A DNA stretch of 64,000 nt. It comes from Gymnodinialimonas sp. 57CJ19 (GTDB lineage: Bacteria; Pseudomonadota; Alphaproteobacteria; Rhodobacterales; Rhodobacteraceae). The stretch lies in assembly GCF_038396845.1 (NCBI RefSeq), contig NZ_CP151587.1:3136001-3200000 (forward strand). The letters run 5' to 3'. Positions within the stretch are counted from its first letter, which is position 1. Each line of letters starts with the position of its first letter. A program made the translations under genes and the position numbers. Below are positions 3,119 to 12,533 of this stretch, in pieces. Under the pieces are notes generated by a model, which was not told where the DNA came from, did not search any database, and worked only from the letters and a program-made list of their open reading frames with translations.

Positions 3119-3136
3119 TGGTGCCCCCACACGGAC
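3119..3136. repeat. attL: 18-bp direct repeat, fragment of tRNA-Thr 3' end
   Basis: Reads TGGTGCCCCCACACGGAC, identical to 12458-12475, where it encodes the CCA end, acceptor 3' strand and part of the T arm of tRNA-Thr. Here there is no tRNA body, so it is a left-over attachment half-site. Identity stops after 18 bases. Confidence 0.88.
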
Positions 3137-3194
3137 CCACACTCACCACTCAATGCATTGATTAAAAGTAGTTAATCTCACACCACAATAGGCA

Positions 3195-3219
3195 ATACCC
3201 CCAATCATACCCCCAAATG
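3195..3219. repeat. Two ATACCCCCAA repeats at the island left end, candidate integrase arm sites
   Basis: ATACCCCCAA at 3195-3204 and ATACCCCCAAATG at 3207-3219 are tandem copies of a motif that recurs at the right end (12325-12359). Short repeated arm sites inside both att ends are typical binding sites for the N-terminal domain of tyrosine integrases. They lie directly after the hsdR stop codon. Confidence 0.55.
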
Positions 3220-5580
3220 CTAATTTGAAGGCGTGTAGAGGTGCCTCTGAAATCCTACAAACGCGCCGATAACGGCGTCCATACCACCCAGCTCAGCGCC
3301 ACACTCTTTCAAAGTGCCGTACCTGATCCTTGCGAAATCAGACAACTTTGAGCGGTCCAAGTCTCCGACACCATGCACCACGTAGCTATCCAAGATATAG
3401 TCTAGGAAGGCCGCAATCTTCGGGTCGAACTGATCCTCGACCCGCCGACGGCCTACCTCAGCACGATGCTCTCTCGTTCTCATGTTTCGATCATATGCAA
3501 TGTGTGACAGCACGTCGAAGACATCGCAGTCTTCGGCACTCATTGCCTTTTGAACTTCGGCAAGGATCGTGGCGTCATAGCTTCGCTCGGCCAAACGTTC
3601 GAGCAATGCCTTGCGGGTGTCGGGATCACTCCACTGGGCAAGTAGATCATCCTCGTCTTTAAACAGCTCAGGCAACTCGCCAAACATACGCTCGATAAAC
3701 TGTCGTGAACTTATCGGCTTGCCGTCTGGCCCCCAAAAAGTCGTCGCGGCGATATTGACGATATGATCATCCGCTAGCTTGATCTGCACCATTTCAGGCT
3801 TGGGTGTCGTCGGGTCTTCACCTCCCGACGGTGTCAAAGGCTCTGGCCCATTTGGGTCTCCCCCGGGCATAGGGCCGTTGGGCTCGCTGGGCGGGGCGAC
3901 GATGATGCTAGCTGGGTCGCCATCCCACTGCGGGTCGTCGAACTTTTCGTGGGCCTTTACGAAGTCATAAACCGTGAAATACCACTTACCCTCAAACGTC
4001 CGCGTGCCCCGCCCAATGATCTGCTTGAACTCGATCATTGAATTCACGGGCCGCATGAGAACGATATTGCGCACGTTCTTGGCGTCCACCCCTGTTGAAA
4101 GCTTTTGCGAGGTAGTCAGGATCGTCGGAATGGTGCGGCTGTTTTGCTGGAACAACTCCAGAAACGCTTCGCCCCCTGCCCCGTCGTTTGCCGTCACACG
4201 GACGCAGTAATTGGCGTCTGGGGATTGCACCTCTTGATTGATCAGGTCGCGGATTAACGCGGCGTGGTTCTGGGTCGCACAGAAAACGATTGTTTTCTCT
4301 TTGAGGTTTATCTCGCTCAGGAACGTGCGCACGCGGTGCAACTCTCGCTCTCTGATCTCGATCTTATTGTTGAAATCCGCCTCGCTGAACTCCTCACCCT
4401 CTTCGACCTCCCCCGCCAGAACCTCATCCGCGCCATCAAACTGATACACGTCGCGGTCTGATCCGAATTGGCGTACTCGGAACGGGGTCAAATAACCGTC
4501 CTCGATCCCCTCGCGCAGAGAATAGGTGTAAACGGGGTCGCCGAAATAGGCGTAGGTGTCGGCGTTGTCTGTCCGCTTAGGCGTGGCCGTCAGCCCCAAC
4601 TGCACGGCAGGTTCGAAATGGTTCAGGATTTCCCGCCAAGAGCTTTCGGCATTCGCGCCGCCACGGTGACATTCATCGACAATCACAAAGTCGAAGAAAT
4701 CGCGGTCGTAATGTTCATACCCCAGCTTGCCGCCCTGATCCGTCGTCAACGTCTGGAAGATCGTAAAGAAGATCGATGCGTTTTGGGGCATCCCGCCGCG
4801 CTTGCTGATCTCGTCGGGGCTGACACGCACCCGCGCGCCATCTTCGAATGCGCCGAATGAATTATACGCCTGCGACGCCAGAATATTGCGATCCGCCAGA
4901 AACAGGATGCGCGGGCGGCGGCTCGGTTTGCCGCTCAGGTTCCATTTGGAATGAAACAGCTTCCAGCACAGTTGAAACGCGATGCCAGTTTTGCCCGTCC
5001 CTGTGGCGAGGGTCAGCAGGATACGATCCTCCCCCCGCGCGACGGCCTCTAATGCCGCTTGGATGGCGTTGTGCTGGTAATAGCGCGGCTGCCATTTGCC
5101 GCCGCCCGTTTCAAACGGCACATCGCCGAAACGATTGCGCCATTCAAGATCTTCGGCAAACGTGCGCGCCCAAAGGTCGTCGGGGGTGGGCGGGCCGCTG
5201 ATATCGCGCTCGGCCCCTGTTTTGGTGTCGATCTCGTACCATGTGCGCCCGTTGCTGGCGTAGGTGAAGCGCGTGCGCAGGCGGCGGGCGTATTCCTTGG
5301 CCTGTGCTACCCCTTCGGCGGTGTTGATCCCTGCGCGTTTGGCCTCGAGCGTGGCGAGCTTTTGGTCGCGGTAGGTCAGCACGTAATCACAAGACATCGG
5401 GTTTTCACGCTTGCCGCCCACGGCAATCCGCCCCGGTGCGATGTCTTCGCGGCTGATCAGGGAGTTTAGAACCACGTCCCAGCCCATATCGCGCAGGCGC
5501 GGATCAATACGCCGCGCGCGGGTGTCGGCCTCGCTTTCTGTGGCGATCAGATCGGGGTGAAGGGACGCATAATCAACCAT
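3220..5580 (-). CDS. hsdR: Type I restriction enzyme R subunit (EcoAI/EcoEI-like)
   Basis: A 786-residue restriction and translocation subunit of a type I R-M complex (R2M2S1) that cleaves unmodified DNA. The N-terminal PD-(D/E)xK nuclease shows D65, E79-A-K81 and the QxxxY motif Q93-Y97. A superfamily 2 helicase follows, with Walker A ATGTGKT (192-198) and DECH (302-305), then the conserved TATPKRTD and QIIGRGTRT segments. The C-terminal 200 residues match the EcoEI_R_C type. Length fits the type IB family (about 810) and not the longer EcoKI type. A Pro/Gly-rich linker near residues 570-600 separates motor and C-domain. It follows hsdS by 50 bases. All catalytic residues are intact. Confidence 0.95.
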   Translation of the reverse strand: MVDYASLHPDLIATESEADTRARRIDPRLRDMGWDVVLNSLISREDIAPGRIAVGGKRENPMSCDYVLTYRDQKLATLEAKRAGINTAEGVAQAKEYARRLRTRFTYASNGRTWYEIDTKTGAERDISGPPTPDDLWARTFAEDLEWRNRFGDVPFETGGGKWQPRYYQHNAIQAALEAVARGEDRILLTLATGTGKTGIAFQLCWKLFHSKWNLSGKPSRRPRILFLADRNILASQAYNSFGAFEDGARVRVSPDEISKRGGMPQNASIFFTIFQTLTTDQGGKLGYEHYDRDFFDFVIVDECHRGGANAESSWREILNHFEPAVQLGLTATPKRTDNADTYAYFGDPVYTYSLREGIEDGYLTPFRVRQFGSDRDVYQFDGADEVLAGEVEEGEEFSEADFNNKIEIRERELHRVRTFLSEINLKEKTIVFCATQNHAALIRDLINQEVQSPDANYCVRVTANDGAGGEAFLELFQQNSRTIPTILTTSQKLSTGVDAKNVRNIVLMRPVNSMIEFKQIIGRGTRTFEGKWYFTVYDFVKAHEKFDDPQWDGDPASIIVAPPSEPNGPMPGGDPNGPEPLTPSGGEDPTTPKPEMVQIKLADDHIVNIAATTFWGPDGKPISSRQFIERMFGELPELFKDEDDLLAQWSDPDTRKALLERLAERSYDATILAEVQKAMSAEDCDVFDVLSHIAYDRNMRTREHRAEVGRRRVEDQFDPKIAAFLDYILDSYVVHGVGDLDRSKLSDFARIRYGTLKECGAELGGMDAVIGAFVGFQRHLYTPSN

Positions 5581-5630
5581 TTGGCGAGTTTATGGGGTGG
5601 CAGAGCGGATGCAAGCCATGATTGCGCGGG

Positions 5631-6833
5631 TCATGTCAGCTCCCCCGCGAAGGCTTTTTGCAGGAGCGATTGGCGCAGGTCGTCTAGGTCGGCGAGTTTG
5701 GTGGTGTAGTGGGCTTGGAGTTCCCCAACGCCACTTTGAAGTTGATCCAATGCATCCGTTAGACTCTTTTGCGATTCGATTGACGGGACCTGTATCTCAA
5801 ATTTCTTCAAGTTCGCAGCCGATAAGTTTGGCTGTGCAGCACCGTTCGCAAAGCGCTTGATCATATCTGCGCAAACTCCGGATGCGAAATAAGCACAGAG
5901 GAACGCCGATGAGACCTTTTCTTTAGGTCGGACAATAACAATCGACGAGGCAATCGCTCCATCATCATCGACATCCACTAAACCAAATTTTCCTAGCGAC
6001 CCACGCAAGCAGAACAACACGTCGCCTCTCCGAACCTTTCCATTGCCAAGCCGATCAAAATGCTCCTTCGGAATGTAGTTCATCTTCGCCCAATCAACTC
6101 GCCCATCGTCGAGATGCCCCGCGTTAATAAAGGGGACGCCCCTTGGAACGAATGCTTTTCGACCAGGATAGTTTTCGCCTCTGTCACCATTCTCAAAGTT
6201 GCAAACTTCACCAAGCATTTTCGGTTCCGCATCAGAACACTTCGTCAGCAACTCCTGACTTTGACGCTCAAACAACTCCCGCGCGTTTTGGAGGTTGGTT
6301 TGGATATGGGTGCGGGCGCGGTCCAAGCCCTCAAACGCCGCATCCAAAACCGCAACAATCCGCTTTTGCTCTTCGAGGGGAGGGAGTGGCGCGACTACCT
6401 TCGAAACCAAGTCGATATTTAAATTGCGAACAGTCGACCCAGCGGCCAAGGCGTTGAATTGATCGAAGACCACCCGTGAACCTAGCGCATAGTAGAGGTA
6501 CCCTTGATCCACACGGGAATAATCTGGCTCTAAGACGAGCCATCCATCGTGTATGCAACCGTCAGTTCGAAGGATATACGGTCTGCCGAAACTCATCGAG
6601 TTTGAAAGCAAAAAAGACCCAGCTGTTACGAAACGTGAACGAGGTATGCCCTCCTTGATTATCTTCTGCTCAGTCTTATCAATATATCGACCTCCAACTT
6701 GGGTATCGCCGATCTTAATCCAATTGATGCCGTCCGGATCATCAGTGATGAACTTCTTGATCGGACGCGGTGATCCCCCTCGTGCAATCTTACAAATTTC
6801 ATCAAGCCGAACGTTTTCCCAGCCCGCCTTCAC
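5631..6833 (-). CDS. hsdS: Type I restriction-modification specificity subunit S
   Basis: A 400-residue subunit that recognises a bipartite DNA target and scaffolds the methyltransferase. Two target-recognition domains (about residues 5-150 and 205-345) are each followed by a conserved helix, PLPPLEEQKRIVAVLD in the first and a more diverged SIESQKSLTDALDQL in the second. The first TRD is AT-richer than its neighbours, as is common for horizontally shuffled TRDs. The start is GTG at 6833, overlapping the hsdM stop (GTGA), so translation is coupled. No second or truncated hsdS and no inverted repeats are near, so phase-variable shuffling is not indicated. Confidence 0.94.
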   Translation of the reverse strand: MKAGWENVRLDEICKIARGGSPRPIKKFITDDPDGINWIKIGDTQVGGRYIDKTEQKIIKEGIPRSRFVTAGSFLLSNSMSFGRPYILRTDGCIHDGWLVLEPDYSRVDQGYLYYALGSRVVFDQFNALAAGSTVRNLNIDLVSKVVAPLPPLEEQKRIVAVLDAAFEGLDRARTHIQTNLQNARELFERQSQELLTKCSDAEPKMLGEVCNFENGDRGENYPGRKAFVPRGVPFINAGHLDDGRVDWAKMNYIPKEHFDRLGNGKVRRGDVLFCLRGSLGKFGLVDVDDDGAIASSIVIVRPKEKVSSAFLCAYFASGVCADMIKRFANGAAQPNLSAANLKKFEIQVPSIESQKSLTDALDQLQSGVGELQAHYTTKLADLDDLRQSLLQKAFAGELT

Positions 6834-8278
6834 AGCATCCCCCGAATACTCTGCAGAATCTCGGCCGTCTCTGCGTCCCGCGCCAGCATATCCGCGATGA
6901 TCTCTTCCGGCTCCCGCAGTGGCGCTTCCTCTGGCGTGTTGGGGTTTTTGACTGACAGATCACAGGTGTCCTCGTCCAGATCATCGACGTTCACGATCCA
7001 AGCCTTGTCGCCTAAGCTGCGGGTCGCCTGCATGGCCACGAACTCTTCCAGGTCCTTGTCGTTCAGCGGGTTGGTCTTACCCATGTTGCGCCCGGGGTCG
7101 AGCTGGTAATACCAGATGTCCTTTGTCGGCTTGCCCCTCTCAAAGAACAGCACCACGGTTTTGACCCCTGCCCCAAGGAACGTGCCACCGGGGCAATCAA
7201 GGATCGTGTGCAGCGCGTTGTCCGCCAGCAGTTGACGGCGCAGCGCAATGGATGCGCCATCGGTGTTGCTCAGGAAGGTGTTCTTGATCACAATCGCCGC
7301 ACGCCCGCCGCCTTTGAGGCTTTCCATGAAATGCTGCATGAACAGATAGGCGCTTTCCGATGATTTCACCGGAAAGTTCAGCTGCAGTTGCTTGTTCTTG
7401 TTGGTGCCAAAGGGCGGGTTGGCAAGGATGATGTCGTAACGGTCTTTTTCCTCGATATCCGCGACCCGTTCAGCCAGCGTATCGGTGCGCAGGTAGTTGG
7501 GGGTCTCGACCCCGTGGAGGATCATGTTCATCAGCCCGATGACATAGGCCAGCGGCGCCTGTTCTTTACCATAAAACGTGCGCCGTTGCAGTAGTTGGCG
7601 CTGGTCCGGCGTGGTTGCCTTGCCCTTGAGGTATTCAAACGCCTCGCACAGGAAGCCCGCAGACCCAGCGGCCCCGTCGTAGATGGTTTCGCCCAATTGC
7701 GGCTGCACCACTTGGATCATGGCGCGGATCAGCGGGCGCGGCGTGTAGTATTGCCCGCCATTGCGCCCCGCGTTGCCCATGTTTTTGATGCGCGTTTCAT
7801 AAAGGTCGGAGAGTTCGGATTTCTGATCCTGGGTGCCGAAGTTCAGCTCGTCGATCTTGTCGAGCGCGTCGCGCAGCATGTAGCCATTGCCGAACTTGTT
7901 GCGCACCTCACCGAAGATCTGCCCGATCTTGGATTGGATCGAGTTGGGGTCAGTGGCGGATGAAAAGCCGCGCAGGTAGGCCATCAGGTCGTTGTTGACG
8001 AAATCCACAAGGTCTTGGCCGATCCGCATGTTGTCGAGGTCAGGTTTGCCGTCCGGCGTTTTAGGCGTGGCCCAAGCGGACCAGCGGTATTGCGGCTCAA
8101 ACAGGGGCACGAAGGGCGTGTTGTCCATCAGGGCTTCGGCTTCGCGTTCCTCTTCAAGGTCGTCGAGGTATTTAAGAAAGAGCATCCACGATGATTGCTC
8201 GGCGTAGTCCAGTTCGGAATTGCAGCCCGGCTCTTGGAACATGATATCGTCGAGGGTTTTGAAGGTTTGCTCAAACAT
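6830..8278 (-). CDS. hsdM: Type I restriction-modification DNA methyltransferase M subunit (N6-adenine)
   Basis: A 482-residue adenine-N6 methyltransferase. An N-terminal HsdM_N helical domain is followed by the GQYYTPR loop, SAM motif I DGAAGSAGF (201-209, a slight variant of DPAAGTGGF) and catalytic motif IV NPPF (287-290). I chose ATG at 8278, preceded by AAAGAG at 5-base spacing; an in-frame GTG at 8302 is possible but adds only eight poorly conserved residues. Length matches EcoAI-type M subunits. It modifies host DNA together with HsdS and supplies the core for HsdR. Confidence 0.94.
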   Translation of the reverse strand: MFEQTFKTLDDIMFQEPGCNSELDYAEQSSWMLFLKYLDDLEEEREAEALMDNTPFVPLFEPQYRWSAWATPKTPDGKPDLDNMRIGQDLVDFVNNDLMAYLRGFSSATDPNSIQSKIGQIFGEVRNKFGNGYMLRDALDKIDELNFGTQDQKSELSDLYETRIKNMGNAGRNGGQYYTPRPLIRAMIQVVQPQLGETIYDGAAGSAGFLCEAFEYLKGKATTPDQRQLLQRRTFYGKEQAPLAYVIGLMNMILHGVETPNYLRTDTLAERVADIEEKDRYDIILANPPFGTNKNKQLQLNFPVKSSESAYLFMQHFMESLKGGGRAAIVIKNTFLSNTDGASIALRRQLLADNALHTILDCPGGTFLGAGVKTVVLFFERGKPTKDIWYYQLDPGRNMGKTNPLNDKDLEEFVAMQATRSLGDKAWIVNVDDLDEDTCDLSVKNPNTPEEAPLREPEEIIADMLARDAETAEILQSIRGML

Positions 8279-8338
8279 GGATGCTCTTTCGTTTTTTAGC
8301 ACTCTGCCCGTGTTGTGAACGGTGTGAAAGTCGAAAAC

Positions 8339-9358
8339 TCATAGCGTGGGCTGCTTTAACAACTCCGCCTGCCGTTCCGTAGACACCGGGCAATATGCGC
8401 TGATCGTCGTGACGACACTGCTATGACCGATGTTCTGCGAAAATGCCTTGAAGCCTTCGCGGGTTGGGTAGGCGACATCGGCCCATTTTACCAAGGTTTT
8501 GCGGAATGCGTGGGGCGTGAACGGCGGCAAGTCTGCGCGGGTGAACGCATCCTTGATGACCGTGCGGATTGCATTTGCGTTCTTGTACGCCTCGCGGCGC
8601 AATCCGGTGACTTGAAACTCACCGTCGCGCGCCTCGATCTTTGGCGGGGGAAACAAAGGATCATCCGGACCGAACAGCGCATCGGTTTTCAGGTAGTTCA
8701 CCCAAGCCGTGAAGCAGGCCAAATAGTCAGGATCGACGGGCAGAAAATAGGTCGTGAACGTCTTGGCGTTCTTCGTCCTCACCTCACGGGCATCCTGATA
8801 TACGCAGCCGTCAAACATGTTGATATGCTTGATCCGCAGCGACGACACTGCCCCGTCCCGCGCGCCCGTCAACATAAAGAAAGCGAACATTGCTTTGTTG
8901 CGTCGCTCGATCCCAGTCGTTTCGGGCATGTACGAAAACGCATGGCGGGCCATCTCCATAGAGGGATAAGGCGTTTCGCGGGAAGCGCTTGCAACACGCG
9001 CACCCTTGGCGTCCATGTTGAAATAATCCGCATCACTATGACGGATGCGGCTCTTGTAACCGCTTTGATCCGCCAGCCAAAAGATAAAGTCTTTGTTGGC
9101 AGCCAAAACTGTGCGGATTGTCGATTTCGACAGAGGCTTTCCTGTGGCCTTGCTGATTTCATTGTTCAAACGGTCATGGAATTTCACCGCTTGTTCGATA
9201 CGGAACTTCTTAAAGTCGGTGAAATTCACACTCGCCTCGAACCGCAAAATTCCTTCGGCTGCCTTTTGCACCGTGCTGGCATCCTTGCGCTTCGCGGTCT
9301 TGAGGTACTGCAAGTAACGGCGCTTGATCCGCTCGTTCTCTTCGTTAATTTTGCGCAT
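8339..9358 (-). CDS. Tyrosine recombinase linked to the hsd operon
   Basis: About 339 residues with the tyrosine recombinase catalytic set: Arg in LTGARDGAVSSLR, HxxR in PHAFRKTL, His in NIGHSS and the nucleophile in TISAYCPVS. The N-terminal part is a helical SAM-like core-binding domain (KRRYLQYLKTAKRK onward). The start at 9358 is chosen for the GAGGAG Shine-Dalgarno just upstream; an open frame extends to 9463. It lies 60 bases before hsdM on the same strand, so co-transcription is likely. It is clearly distinct from the island integrase at 11105-12292. Possible roles are excision, element resolution or a defence-associated function; none is shown by sequence. Confidence 0.85.
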   Translation of the reverse strand: MRKINEENERIKRRYLQYLKTAKRKDASTVQKAAEGILRFEASVNFTDFKKFRIEQAVKFHDRLNNEISKATGKPLSKSTIRTVLAANKDFIFWLADQSGYKSRIRHSDADYFNMDAKGARVASASRETPYPSMEMARHAFSYMPETTGIERRNKAMFAFFMLTGARDGAVSSLRIKHINMFDGCVYQDAREVRTKNAKTFTTYFLPVDPDYLACFTAWVNYLKTDALFGPDDPLFPPPKIEARDGEFQVTGLRREAYKNANAIRTVIKDAFTRADLPPFTPHAFRKTLVKWADVAYPTREGFKAFSQNIGHSSVVTTISAYCPVSTERQAELLKQPTL

Positions 9359-9410
9359 GCTCGAACGCTCCTCTGTAAGTGTTATTTTAGACGGTGATCG
9401 TGGGTATCCA

Positions 9411-9836
9411 TTAAGGTTCGCTGCCCGCACCTGTTTTGAAATGGAAAGTTGCGGCGAACTCATCGAGGCGGCTGTTTGAAATTATACGGCTTGCAGCGCC
9501 ACCACATTGCTCACACGCCCCGGCAAGGCGGGATGTCTTGATGGTATTTGGGAAGCATTCAACGGACATCGCGAAAGGCTTGCGCCCTGCACCGCACCTG
9601 AAACAAGTCAACTCATCATGGTTGAGCGGCTTCTTAGCGGCTTTGCTCTTAGAACGCAGATATGCACGTATTTCCGCGCCAGAAATCAGGTAAGGTTTCT
9701 TCGTTGCCATGATCGGCAGCCCATCCCTTACCCAATTGCGGATCGTTGCTTTGCTTACACCCAGCGCAACGGCAGCTTCGGACACCTCGTAAGTAAGCGC
9801 GGATTTGACCCCCATTGGGTTTACTCGTTTACCCAT
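9411..9836 (-). CDS. HTH (MerR/excisionase-like) protein with C-terminal zinc ribbon
   Basis: A 141-residue protein. Residues about 18-60 form an excisionase/MerR-like winged HTH (YEVSEAAVALGVSKATIRNW followed by ISGAEIRAYL). The C-terminal half has paired cysteines, CFRCG and CEQCGG, 34 residues apart, the spacing of a zinc ribbon. I chose ATG at 9836 because it overlaps the upstream AlpA stop by 8 bases (ATGGGTAA) and is preceded by GAAGGG; ATG at 9815 is an alternative. Probably a DNA-binding regulator or recombination directionality factor. No named family recognised for the whole protein. Confidence 0.7.
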   Translation of the reverse strand: MGKRVNPMGVKSALTYEVSEAAVALGVSKATIRNWVRDGLPIMATKKPYLISGAEIRAYLRSKSKAAKKPLNHDELTCFRCGAGRKPFAMSVECFPNTIKTSRLAGACEQCGGAASRIISNSRLDEFAATFHFKTGAGSEP

Positions 9837-10038
9837 CGGCATGCCCTTCAAACAAGGCACGGATTTCTTCGACCTTCCAAACCGTCGTGCGAGGGCCGAG
9901 CTTTTGGGGTTGCGGAAAACGGTTCTCTTTGACGCCTTGCCACCATGTAGATTTGGAAACTGGGATCGGGCCAGCGGGAGCCAGAATTTGCGCTAGCCGC
10001 ACAAAACCTGTCGTCGGAAATTCGTTGTTGTCCACCAT
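9829..10038 (-). CDS. AlpA-like small HTH protein
   Basis: 69 residues with the AlpA/excisionase layout: an N-terminal recognition segment (FVRLAQILAPAGPIPVSKST), WWQGV, then KLGPRTTVWKVEEIRALFE. AlpA proteins regulate integrase expression or act as excisionases of prophage-like islands. It begins the minus-strand block HTH/zinc ribbon, recombinase, hsdMSR. The upstream 150 bases (10039-10191) are AT-rich and probably hold the promoter. Confidence 0.8.
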   Translation of the reverse strand: MVDNNEFPTTGFVRLAQILAPAGPIPVSKSTWWQGVKENRFPQPQKLGPRTTVWKVEEIRALFEGHADG

Positions 10039-10191
10039 TGTGTATCCTCATGTCAGTATGTGCAGCGACATGTGGCACGGTCAATTTAGAGCTAGGACGA
10101 ATAGGATCTAGGCTGCCAGAATAGAAATCCCTCGTTGATGTTAAACGAAAAAATCACGACACGCCGTTATACGATTAGTTATAATCTTGAT

Positions 10192-11055
10192 CTAGTCGGG
10201 TGGAAGGTCCGCCGAACCGATTCTTAAGTACTTCAAGACAGTTTCAGCGGACCCCTGTAGCCCCAATCGGTCCATGATTCCCAATATCTCATTCGGAATT
10301 GGGCTACGTGGACTCTTGGGGTCGTATCCGTATTCTTCAATTGCAATGGCCGTTAATATTCTTGCGACGGCACGAACGGCACGCGGGTCTTCCCGTTGCG
10401 TTTTCCTCGTTGGCACGCCTTCACAGCCATGAAACCGCTCCAAGACATTCAACGCTTGTGCGTGAACCTCAAGATCGACGGTCCTGATCCACTTAAGGAG
10501 GTCATCTGCTGGGATCTTTTGATTATGCCGTGAAACGTGAAATTGGCGAGAAAATTGTTCGGCTCGCCTTTTGGCAAAAATCATCGGTTTGCCCAAATAG
10601 AGCAGGGTTTCATCATCTTCATTCAATAGATTCTTAAAATGTTTTGGCTCGACACCAAGTGTCAAACAAACGGCCTCATCCAGCAGCAGACTTGGCATCC
10701 GCCCCCAGTACTCGAAGTCTGCGACGTAATCGGGATGTCCGAAACCACCTTCTGCCCAGAACGGACGGTGCTTTCGCAGTAGCGAAATTTCTCTTGCAAA
10801 GAGTTCACGCCACTGCTTGCGCGCGCCCGTTTGCTCATTCCGATCATCGGCAATAATTGCATCCAGCTCAACATCCGTCGCATCGGTTAGGACTTGAAAC
10901 GCTACATCCAAGAGCTGATCAATTTTCGCGGCGTATTCAGAGAACAGATCAGGCTCATATGGCCCCACAGTTTGAACCAGATCAGGAATTTCCCAATCAT
11001 AAAGCTCAACGAATTTCCGGCGCATGATCACATCAAACGCCCCTGTCACCTGCAT
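10192..11055 (-). CDS. Island protein of unknown function
   Basis: About 287 residues, clearly lower in GC than the chromosomal flanks. It contains the segment YWGRMPSLLLDEAVCLTLGV, a W-x-EA-x-L-GxxP-type motif seen in various uncharacterised mobile-element proteins, followed by a charged helical C-terminal half. No catalytic motif, signal or membrane segment is visible. The frame is open to 11214, but that part overlaps the integrase gene; ATG 11055 or ATG 11025 is more likely, and the Shine-Dalgarno is weak, so the start is uncertain. It lies between integrase and AlpA genes on the same strand. Confidence 0.6.
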   Translation of the reverse strand: MQVTGAFDVIMRRKFVELYDWEIPDLVQTVGPYEPDLFSEYAAKIDQLLDVAFQVLTDATDVELDAIIADDRNEQTGARKQWRELFAREISLLRKHRPFWAEGGFGHPDYVADFEYWGRMPSLLLDEAVCLTLGVEPKHFKNLLNEDDETLLYLGKPMIFAKRRAEQFSRQFHVSRHNQKIPADDLLKWIRTVDLEVHAQALNVLERFHGCEGVPTRKTQREDPRAVRAVARILTAIAIEEYGYDPKSPRSPIPNEILGIMDRLGLQGSAETVLKYLRIGSADLPPD

Positions 11056-11104
11056 TTTGTCAAATCGTATCGTGGTCAAACTCGGCCCTTTTTCAAAACC
11101 ACGA

Positions 11105-12292
11105 CTACCCTGCCCGCACCTCATCCAAGAATCCAGCCCACCAGACTGCCAACCTAACGCGCTCCTCCCAATGCTCTCCCCTCGCATAAGCGCGGCGCAC
11201 TTCGTTTTTCTCAACGTGCGCTAAGGCCCGCTCGATAGCGTCGGGGTTCCAAAGGCCGCTTTCGTTGGCAAGCGTGGAGAATGATGCGCGAAAACCGTGG
11301 GCCGTCATTTCGTCGCCGGAATACCCCATACGGCGCAAAGCCGCGTTGAGGGTGTTTTCTGACATCGGGCGGGTCCAAGTGCGCAGTGACGGGAACAGAT
11401 AGTCGCCTTTGTTATTCATAGCCCGCAAATGTTCCAACAACTTCAAAGCTTGTTTGGGCAACGGCACGTTATGATCGCGGCGCATTTTCATCTTGGCGGC
11501 GGGAATTGACCAAACCGCTTCCGCTAAATCAATCTCATCCCATTTAGCATTGCGCACCTCCCCAGGCCTCTGTGCAAGGATGGCGAGTAATTTCAAGGCA
11601 ATGCGTGTCGTCGCCTGCCCGTCAAAGCCGTCGATCTCGACCATTAGCCTGCCCAGCGCCTTAGGATCAACAATCGCAGCACGGTGAACGCGGGTTGGGC
11701 GGATCAACGCGTCGCGCAATGCATACGTTGGGTCCGTTTCCGCGATGCCACTCGCGACTGCGTAACGGAAGATAGATCCAATGCGGGCACGTAAGCGGTG
11801 GGCGGTCTCGTAGTTGCCTTTGGCTTCGACCTTGCGCAGGGTTTTCAGGATCATCGGCGCAGTGATTTCGGAGACAGGCTTACGGCCAAAATCGCGATTG
11901 GCCAACTTGATGTGATATTCGGTCTTCGAAAGCGTAGCCGCCGATTTCCCCTCTTTGCGCTGCTTGGCGAGGAATGCAGCACCGATCTTCTCAAACGTTT
12001 GCCCCTTGGCCTCTAGCCTCAATCGCTTTTCTTCTTGCTTGGCCTCGCTGGGATCAACCCCATCAGCCAACTGCGCCTTAGCAACATCACGGGCTTGCCG
12101 TGCCTTGGCGAGCGACACAGCGGGATAGTCGCCTATCACTAACAGCCGCTCCTTGCCGTCGATCCTATACTTGAAACGCCACGACTTCGCGCCACTGACT
12201 TTTACCAGAATGAACAAACCCTCAAAGTCGCTGACTTTATAGGCTCTATCGCCGGATTTGAGGTTTCGAATCTTAATGTCGTTGAGGGGCAT
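11105..12292 (-). CDS. P4-type tyrosine integrase of the tRNA-Thr island
   Basis: A 395-residue integrase with an N-terminal DUF4102-type arm-binding domain (IKIRNLKSGDRAYKVSDFEG, GKERLLVIGDYPAVSLAKAR), a core-binding domain (about 95-195) and a catalytic domain. Catalytic residues visible: Arg in AQRPGEVRNAKW, Lys in AKMKMRRDH, HxxR in AHGFRASF, His in ERALAH and Tyr in EVRRAYARG. It lies 166 bases from tRNA-Thr and is read away from it, as expected for an island integrase using the tRNA 3' end as attB. Appears intact, so the island may still excise. Confidence 0.95.
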   Translation of the reverse strand: MPLNDIKIRNLKSGDRAYKVSDFEGLFILVKVSGAKSWRFKYRIDGKERLLVIGDYPAVSLAKARQARDVAKAQLADGVDPSEAKQEEKRLRLEAKGQTFEKIGAAFLAKQRKEGKSAATLSKTEYHIKLANRDFGRKPVSEITAPMILKTLRKVEAKGNYETAHRLRARIGSIFRYAVASGIAETDPTYALRDALIRPTRVHRAAIVDPKALGRLMVEIDGFDGQATTRIALKLLAILAQRPGEVRNAKWDEIDLAEAVWSIPAAKMKMRRDHNVPLPKQALKLLEHLRAMNNKGDYLFPSLRTWTRPMSENTLNAALRRMGYSGDEMTAHGFRASFSTLANESGLWNPDAIERALAHVEKNEVRRAYARGEHWEERVRLAVWWAGFLDEVRAG

Positions 12293-12293
12293 A

Positions 12294-12359
12294 GTGGGGG
12301 TACGCAGTTATTCCAGTGTTCACCGTACCCCCAGAAATACCCCCCAAATGGGGGTACGC
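12294..12359. repeat. GGGGGTAC/GTACCCCC repeat cluster at the island right end, candidate integrase arm sites
   Basis: Contains GTGGGGGTAC (12294-12303), GTACCCCCAG (12325-12334), ATACCCCCCAAATG (12337-12350) and GGGGGTACGC (12350-12359). The unit TACCCCC(C)AAATG also occurs at the left end (3207-3219). The inverted arrangement overlaps the integrase promoter, so it could also mediate autoregulation. Confidence 0.55.
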
Positions 12360-12457
12360 TGCTGGACGCCACCGAACAACGCTGGACGAACGATCTCGTT
12401 AATAGCCTTATATACAAGGCTCTTTCGCATGTCATTGGATAAATCTGGACGGATAAA

Positions 12458-12475
12458 TGGTGCCCCCACACGGAC
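12458..12475. repeat. attR: 18-bp direct repeat within tRNA-Thr
   Basis: Identical to 3119-3136. It covers the encoded CCA, discriminator, acceptor 3' strand and the start of the T stem. Integration here keeps the tRNA intact because the island side supplies the same bases. Confidence 0.88.
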
Positions 12476-12533
12476 TCGAACCGCGGACCTACTGATTACA
12501 AATCAGTTGCTCTACCAGCTGAGCTATAGGGGC
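12458..12533 (-). tRNA. tRNA-Thr (anticodon TGT)
   Basis: A 76-nt cloverleaf on the minus strand. Acceptor GCCCCTA pairs with TGGGGGC (one G-T pair), the D stem is GCTC/GAGC, the anticodon stem is ACTGA/TCAGT with loop TTTGTAA (anticodon TGT), and the T arm has loop TTCGAGT. The 3' end has discriminator A and encoded CCA. It reads ACA threonine codons and serves as the island attachment site. Confidence 0.97.

Follow-up and report, generated by a model that had tools for sequence, protein, structure and literature searches.

The DNA analysed here, a 64,000-nucleotide stretch of contig NZ_CP151587.1 from Gymnodinialimonas sp. 57CJ19 (the window; positions are counted from its first letter), raises the question of how a compact block of eight genes, including a type I restriction-modification (R-M) system and two tyrosine recombinase genes, came to lie next to tRNA-Thr(TGT), and what the second recombinase does there. 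An earlier sequence-only reading had described the block as a complete genomic island with exact boundaries. The explanation that we favour, with a probability of about 0.82, is a site-specific integrative island in which an integrase (Int) acts on an 18-bp core and on arm sites, an AlpA-like protein assists excision, a helix-turn-helix (HTH) protein with a probable zinc ribbon forms a core module with the second recombinase (Rec2), and one R-M system fills a cargo slot.

Boundaries and attachment sites

The 18-mer TGGTGCCCCCACACGGAC was found in two exact copies, which bracket a block of 9,357 bp (3119-12475; the distance of 9,339 bp from start to start is the island size). As the sequence-only reading had claimed, the right copy forms the 3' end of a tRNA-Thr(TGT) gene, which is intact, and the eight genes assigned to the island are all on the minus strand (Table 1). 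That reading had also asked whether the 18-mer is common elsewhere and whether relatives have a contiguous site. A search of the whole genome (one contig, 3,861,607 bp) returned two exact matches, both at the island ends, and none of a reversed control pattern, so the 18-mer is not common elsewhere. The contiguous site was found in a sister species (G002), in which the joined flanks of the island align at 93% (1459/1565 positions, 9 small gaps) through one 18-mer. The 18-mer is flanked by AAGTGG at the left copy and by AAATGG at the tRNA copy. Since AAGTGG is also the base state of the uninterrupted site, the crossover must have taken place inside the 18 bp. The GC content of the island is 54.5%, compared with 61.7% (standard deviation (SD) 1.0) in 9-kb intervals to its right and 57.0% in the 3.1 kb on its left. 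Three features by which an integrative tRNA island is recognised were found: the tRNA 3' end repeated at each boundary, a site-specific integrase gene next to the tRNA and an uninterrupted site in a close relative.

We surveyed the tRNA-Thr(TGT) site in 12 congeners (G001-G012) and found the island itself at this tRNA in none of them. Apart from the empty site of G002, G001 and G008 hold other elements with additional copies of the tRNA 3' end, and G012 has a truncated relative of the integrase (52% over 174 amino acids) directly after the tRNA. The remaining eight (G003, G004, G005, G006, G007, G009, G010, G011) showed no island genes beside the tRNA within about 14 kb, except that G010 has a remote integrase match (23%) 10.6 kb from the tRNA; the G009 tRNA gene is more diverged (89%), and G005 carries a related island at a different tRNA, tRNA-Thr(CGT). 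In G008 (locus L210), homologues of hsdM, hsdS and hsdR (63, 28 and 54%) also lie at this tRNA, but reversed and next to other integrases, in an element with tRNA 3'-end sequence at three places. Because these hsd homologues sit there within another element, the tRNA is a reused site. Restriction genes at the same place without a repeat, which the sequence-only reading had named as the contrary case, were met in none of the 12 congeners.

A pair of TACCCCC heptamers in a 12-bp register is present both in the gap between the tRNA gene and int and in the stretch before the outer repeat, and six of the nine TACCCCC copies in the window fall at the two ends of the island. In other islands of the family described below, the heptamer differs between islands, yet the two ends of an island correspond. 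When 13 islands with repeat-defined right ends were compared, the matched heptamer positions summed to 170, whereas permutation gave a mean of 146.9 (SD 5.3), and none of 20,000 permutations was as high, although these islands are mutually related and their kinship remains in the test. At least 13 of 14 positions matched in 12 of the 13. Sixteen islands have a second repeat copy, of which L102, L148 and L152 had been excluded beforehand (14-bp matches off the tRNA end). Judging from their position and from the arm-type domain of Int, the heptamer pairs are probable Int arm sites.

Island core and cargo slot

Int contains arm-type, central and catalytic domains, and none of the eight frames is interrupted by a stop codon. 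The sequence-only reading had named an adjacent integrase of P4 type; the place beside the tRNA and the domains agree with this, but the P4 assignment is supported only loosely, as the score against the closest NCBIfam model, NF007246, was below the cut-off (258.9 vs. 434 bits). In Rec2, five of the catalytic positions (R, K, H-x-x-R, H, Y) are conserved in 78 of 78 sequences and the second R in 77 (one C), and the Rec2 profile matches the solved XerD and XerA among others. The cysteines C86, C89, C116 and C119 of the HTH protein are invariant in 10 sequences. Its profile gave only weak matches to solved structures, including MerR-like and terminase-like proteins and RppC; its single match in PHROGs, a terminase small subunit, is weak and runs through the HTH. 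By the family-model matches in Table 1, together with NPPF in HsdM and with GTGKT and DECH in HsdR, hsdM, hsdS and hsdR are a complete type I R-M system of the EcoAI family, which is predicted to be active. With Pfam, NCBIfam and PADLOC for all eight proteins and PHROGs for five of them, neither conjugation and phage-structural genes nor capsid or packaging-redirecting genes were recognised; a relaxase was likewise not recognised among the eight. The contents listed by the sequence-only reading (type I R-M, recombinase and HTH genes, no phage or conjugation genes) were thus found, but the list had left the AlpA-like and the 287-residue proteins unnamed.

Table 1. Features of the island and its attachment site in the window
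Feature	Position	Strand	Basis
Attachment core, far copy, 18 bp, outer island end	3119..3136		exact repeat; G002 alignment
Right arm, TACCCCC at 3196 and 3208	3196..3214		Int binding inferred
hsdR, EcoAI family	3220..5580	-	NF046051, 775.3 bits (cut-off 550)
hsdS, two specificity stretches	5631..6833	-	PF01420
hsdM (ATG start; open frame from GTG at 8302)	6830..8278	-	PF02384
rec2, second tyrosine recombinase, 374 aa, arm domain not found	8339..9463	-	PF00589; catalytic residues
HTH protein, two CxxC pairs, probable zinc ribbon	9411..9860	-	PF12728; conserved cysteines
alpA-like regulator, probable excision factor (role inferred)	9829..10038	-	PF05930
unk, 287-aa hypervariable protein (start codon chosen by us)	10192..11055	-	no Pfam, NCBIfam, PHROG or PADLOC match
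int, arm-type tyrosine integrase, 395 aa	11105..12292	-	PF13356, PF22022, PF00589
Left arm, TACCCCC at 12326 and 12338, inverted copies at 12296 and 12350	12296..12356		probable integrase arm sites, Int binding inferred
Attachment core, tRNA copy, 18 bp	12458..12475		exact repeat
tRNA-Thr(TGT), integration target, intact	12458..12533	-	ARAGORN
aa, amino acids.

A pattern-based scan of 84,980 species genomes, in which a Rec2 alignment served as the query, gave 526 confirmed stretches, and the best 80 together with the window make up a set of 81 loci, which are the closest relatives and no random sample. On contigs of sufficient length, the elements mostly follow each other as tRNA, Int, Unk or a substitute, AlpA (not in all), HTH protein, Rec2, cargo and right arm. 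The targets include tRNA-Thr, Leu, Ser, Phe and Gly, and the tRNA is at the far end in some islands with other integrases (e.g., L107, L111, L117). By gene order, the island in the window belongs to a widespread family of small islands that have a fixed core in common; the interpretation as an island was supported but had been incomplete, since it did not include this family, the second recombinase or the cargo slot. Rec2 is rare outside chromosomes: it was found in 4 of 72,556 plasmid records and in none of 50,697 phage records, and a pattern-based scan of viral contigs gave four Rec2 loci. Searches of the open-licence literature listed no account of this island core.

A second island of the family (L078) is present in the same genome at tRNA-Ser(GGA) (G000:C1:3029000-3047000; locus 6679-12452). 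It is 5.7 kb long, is bounded by 64-bp repeats (92%) with a GTGGTA-type heptamer pair at both ends, and contains Int, the HTH protein and Rec2, whereas its cargo slot of about 1.5 kb is almost empty. Because Rec2 is present in this nearly cargo-free island and adjoins different integrase types across the loci, its function is likely to belong to the core, and we read it as a core mobility factor.

The cargo slot, defined as the interval from the rec2 stop to the right arm, was mapped in 24 islands (20 by heptamer, four by a repeat with adjoining arm). It has a median length of 5.6 kb (range 2.7-8.5); the first cargo gene starts a median of 64 bp past rec2 and the last ends a median of 64 bp before the arm, the first-gene gap of L086 being an artefact of an overlong hsdM frame. 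In the window, the hsdM frame opens 37 bp past rec2, and 5 bp separate the end of hsdR from the arm. Sequence clusters placed one or more R-M or Cas homologues in 21 of the 24 slots, including a lone methylase in L137 and L147, and none was recognised in L122, L127 and L156. L139, whose end is known by its repeat only, was kept outside this count and would change it to 22/25. Across the whole set, clusters show the start of an R-M or Cas homologue no more than 3.5 kb past rec2 in 51 of the 81 loci; inspection adds L124, L137, L148, L141 (opposite strand) and L118 (PbeA homologue, a little more distant), giving 56/81. Each of the 25 others has a short contig, different genes or no recognised content. 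PADLOC was run on cluster representatives, with other members inheriting the label, and assigned type IIG, type III, CRISPR I-C (Cas3, Cas8c), Cas9, and type I and type II methylases.

The slot of L122 (11069-16419), which encodes a 612-residue protein without Pfam match, and that of L156 are candidate places for unrecognised defence systems.

To this we added a comparison within 198 genomes of the host's family, in which Rec2 is present in 30 and an Int relative in 104 (E up to 1e-20). An R-M gene lies directly downstream in 8 of 20 Rec2 loci (L163, L164, L165, L168, L169, L173, L174, L181) and in 1 of 20 Int loci lacking Rec2 (L184; Fisher p 0.02); L166, with Cas9 between Int and Rec2, and L171, with a methylase farther off, were not counted. 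The Rec2 loci were newly included places judged usable, at least six of them in genomes already in the first set, and the controls were high-scoring integrase matches without a nearby Rec2, hand-picked rather than random, four of them short contig pieces. PADLOC was run on both sets because local models built from Rec2 loci favour the Rec2 set. Among 72 Rec2-locus proteins (the first 25 of 189 families), it labelled four type I methylases, two type III methylases and two type III nucleases; among 116 control proteins (all 15 families), it found no match to models named MTase and one to REase_I, while three MADS models had one or two matches apiece. Since the genomes overlap the first set and the controls are hand-picked, four of them short, the comparison is supporting evidence and not an independent replicate.

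The cargo changes while the core is kept. On a quick tree of 78 Rec2 sequences, 47 of which could be assigned to one of five system types (orphan and mixed systems received no label), the type changes at least 17 times; shuffled labels gave a mean of 21.0 (SD 1.3), and 4 of 500 shufflings were as low. The cargo type therefore tracks the core only weakly. The cores of L117 and L121 are 93% identical and their cargo is different; in L117, a newer type IIG gene lies between remnants of an older type III system, with the first part of the methylase gene on one side and the last part of the nuclease gene on the other. Start pieces of hsdM are retained in L089 and L127.

Weighing the explanations

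We propose that Int recombines the 18-bp core at the 3' end of tRNA-Thr(TGT), keeping the tRNA gene intact, and uses the heptamers near both ends as arm sites, while AlpA probably tips the reaction toward excision. The HTH-zinc protein and Rec2 would form a second recombination module that is part of the element core rather than of the cargo, and this module most likely processes the circular form; our best guess is that Rec2 resolves its multimers. One complete EcoAI-family R-M system occupies the slot that runs from rec2 to the right arm; this system would shield the host from phages and may help to retain the island. Since transfer genes were not recognised, transfer between cells would need a helper.

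Several observations weigh against parts of this explanation. L139 does not have a matched arm pair (7/14 positions), and exact right-end copies of the heptamer were found in just 20 of 42 islands searched, some of which are on short contigs. The arm sites are assigned by position and the role of AlpA by family, and we infer excision and a circular form, neither of which was observed. As a Rec2 site was not found, multimer resolution is without direct support. Among the 20 Rec2 loci sampled from the host's family, 12, including distant forms of 535-545 residues (L179, L180, L182), showed no R-M gene directly downstream.

The variable slot could also be explained if the HTH-zinc protein and Rec2 were a loader that, by recombination at sites next to rec2 and close to the right arm, inserts or exchanges whole defence operons, resembling an operon-scale integron that spreads R-M and CRISPR systems, mainly in Alphaproteobacteria. 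The narrow cargo margins on both sides, the repeated type changes on the Rec2 tree and the pair L117/L121 would fit such a machine. Exchange at a fixed Rec2 site was examined by eye for a motif and through the breakpoints in close pairs; inspection after rec2 showed no common motif, and the scars lie inside old cargo. Because the type III scars of L117 are on both sides of the newer gene, replacement inside the old cargo is favoured over exchange at a fixed site. The hsdM start pieces kept in L089 and L127, and the presence of Rec2 in the nearly cargo-free L078, likewise argue against a loader, which we consider unlikely. Recombinases beside hsdS invert or shuffle genes in other bacteria, and an invertase role of Rec2, switching the hsd operon on and off or shuffling hsdS, might be suspected from an inverted repeat of 13 bp whose halves enclose the start of hsdM (8176-8188 / 8278-8290). 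When inverted repeats near hsdM were compared in 18 hsd islands, the longest in the other 17 was at most 10 bp. The 13-bp repeat is thus not conserved and probably due to chance; since Rec2 is found with type IIG, type III and CRISPR cargo as well, we give the invertase very little credence.

The integrative island is also preferred over two other origins. A decayed prophage or phage satellite that lost its packaging genes would be in line with the occurrence of AlpA in prophages and with matches of Int to 459 of the 50,697 phage records, all of which are below 60% identity. However, neither Rec2 nor Unk matches any of these records, Rec2 was met at only four loci in the viral-contig scan, capsid or packaging genes were not recognised in the island proteins, and the same compact core recurs in many genera, unlike the outcome of random decay, which makes this origin improbable. 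Type I loci are often chromosomal, and the hsd homologues of G008 at the same tRNA might suggest an old chromosomal locus with a coincidental repeat. The unique pair of 18-mers, the clean site of G002, the absence of the island from this tRNA in all 12 congeners, the differing GC content and the matched arm pairs speak against it, and the G008 genes belong to another element; we consider a coincidence scarcely credible.

Related elements and minor observations

The Gamma-Mobile-Trio islands have a conserved core with a tyrosine recombinase and a defence-rich cargo; their gene trio differs from the core described here. Three kinds of elements from the literature were also compared. P4-like satellites and P2-like phages contain hotspots with conserved genes beside a fast-changing antiviral slot of about 1-5 kb (Rousset et al. 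2022, PMC9122126). They share with the present family a small mobile element in which conserved genes adjoin a variable slot holding antiviral systems, but those hotspots sit in phages and satellites near cos, whereas a packaging gene was not recognised here; in addition, a second recombinase and an HTH-zinc protein border the present slot, and its recognisable cargo is mostly R-M with some CRISPR-Cas. The I55-type islands at tmRNA (Zhao et al. 2025, PMC12595487), one of which is mobilised by a jumbo phage and confers protection with its type II R-M system, resemble our island in having a tyrosine integrase and alpA, direct repeats at an RNA gene, defence genes and no autonomous transfer genes. 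They lie after tmRNA, share a region of about 18 kb and have core genes that include RadC, YqaJ and Gp2-like proteins; a second recombinase corresponding to Rec2 is not mentioned in the part of that paper considered. Like the present island, the dusA islands (PMC4482086) are integrase islands able to carry a type I R-M system, as one of them does, but they target the dusA gene, are larger (41-54 kb for three tabulated), have very diverse cargo and, according to that paper, use a different integrase family. The nearest described kinds that we found are thus the P4/P2 hotspots and the I55 islands, and the island in the window works like a tRNA island with a defence hotspot.

The family offers a concrete small vehicle, consisting of a core of about 4 kb and often one complete system, with ends that can be read from the sequence (for context, see Oliveira et al. 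2014, PMC4176335). Such islands may help to explain how restriction and CRISPR systems move between bacteria, and because the slot is bounded by rec2 and the arm heptamers, it can be scanned for unrecognised defence systems. The core also contains a second recombinase and a hypervariable gene without assigned function.

This gene, unk, was compared with the other core genes in Thr-type islands. The median pairwise identity in 25 islands was 72% for Int, 79% for AlpA, 64% for Rec2 and 45% for the HTH protein, and 26% for Unk (24 islands). The rank correlation of the identities was 0.80 between the HTH protein and Rec2, compared with 0.22 between Unk and Int and 0.06 between Unk and Rec2. Because of its low identity, which tracks neither Int nor Rec2, Unk is a second fast-changing place of the island. 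It has no convincing solved relative (best E 0.22), and a recognition or immunity determinant would be a guess.

In L100, L138 and L203, two integrase genes lie back to back at the start of the island, resembling two insertions at one place. Between unk and alpA (10160-10180), there is a CTAATCG-type palindrome, which is imperfect in the window and perfect in some relatives (e.g., L104). It was seen in many of 24 aligned islands and is tied to no protein; it is a possible operator.

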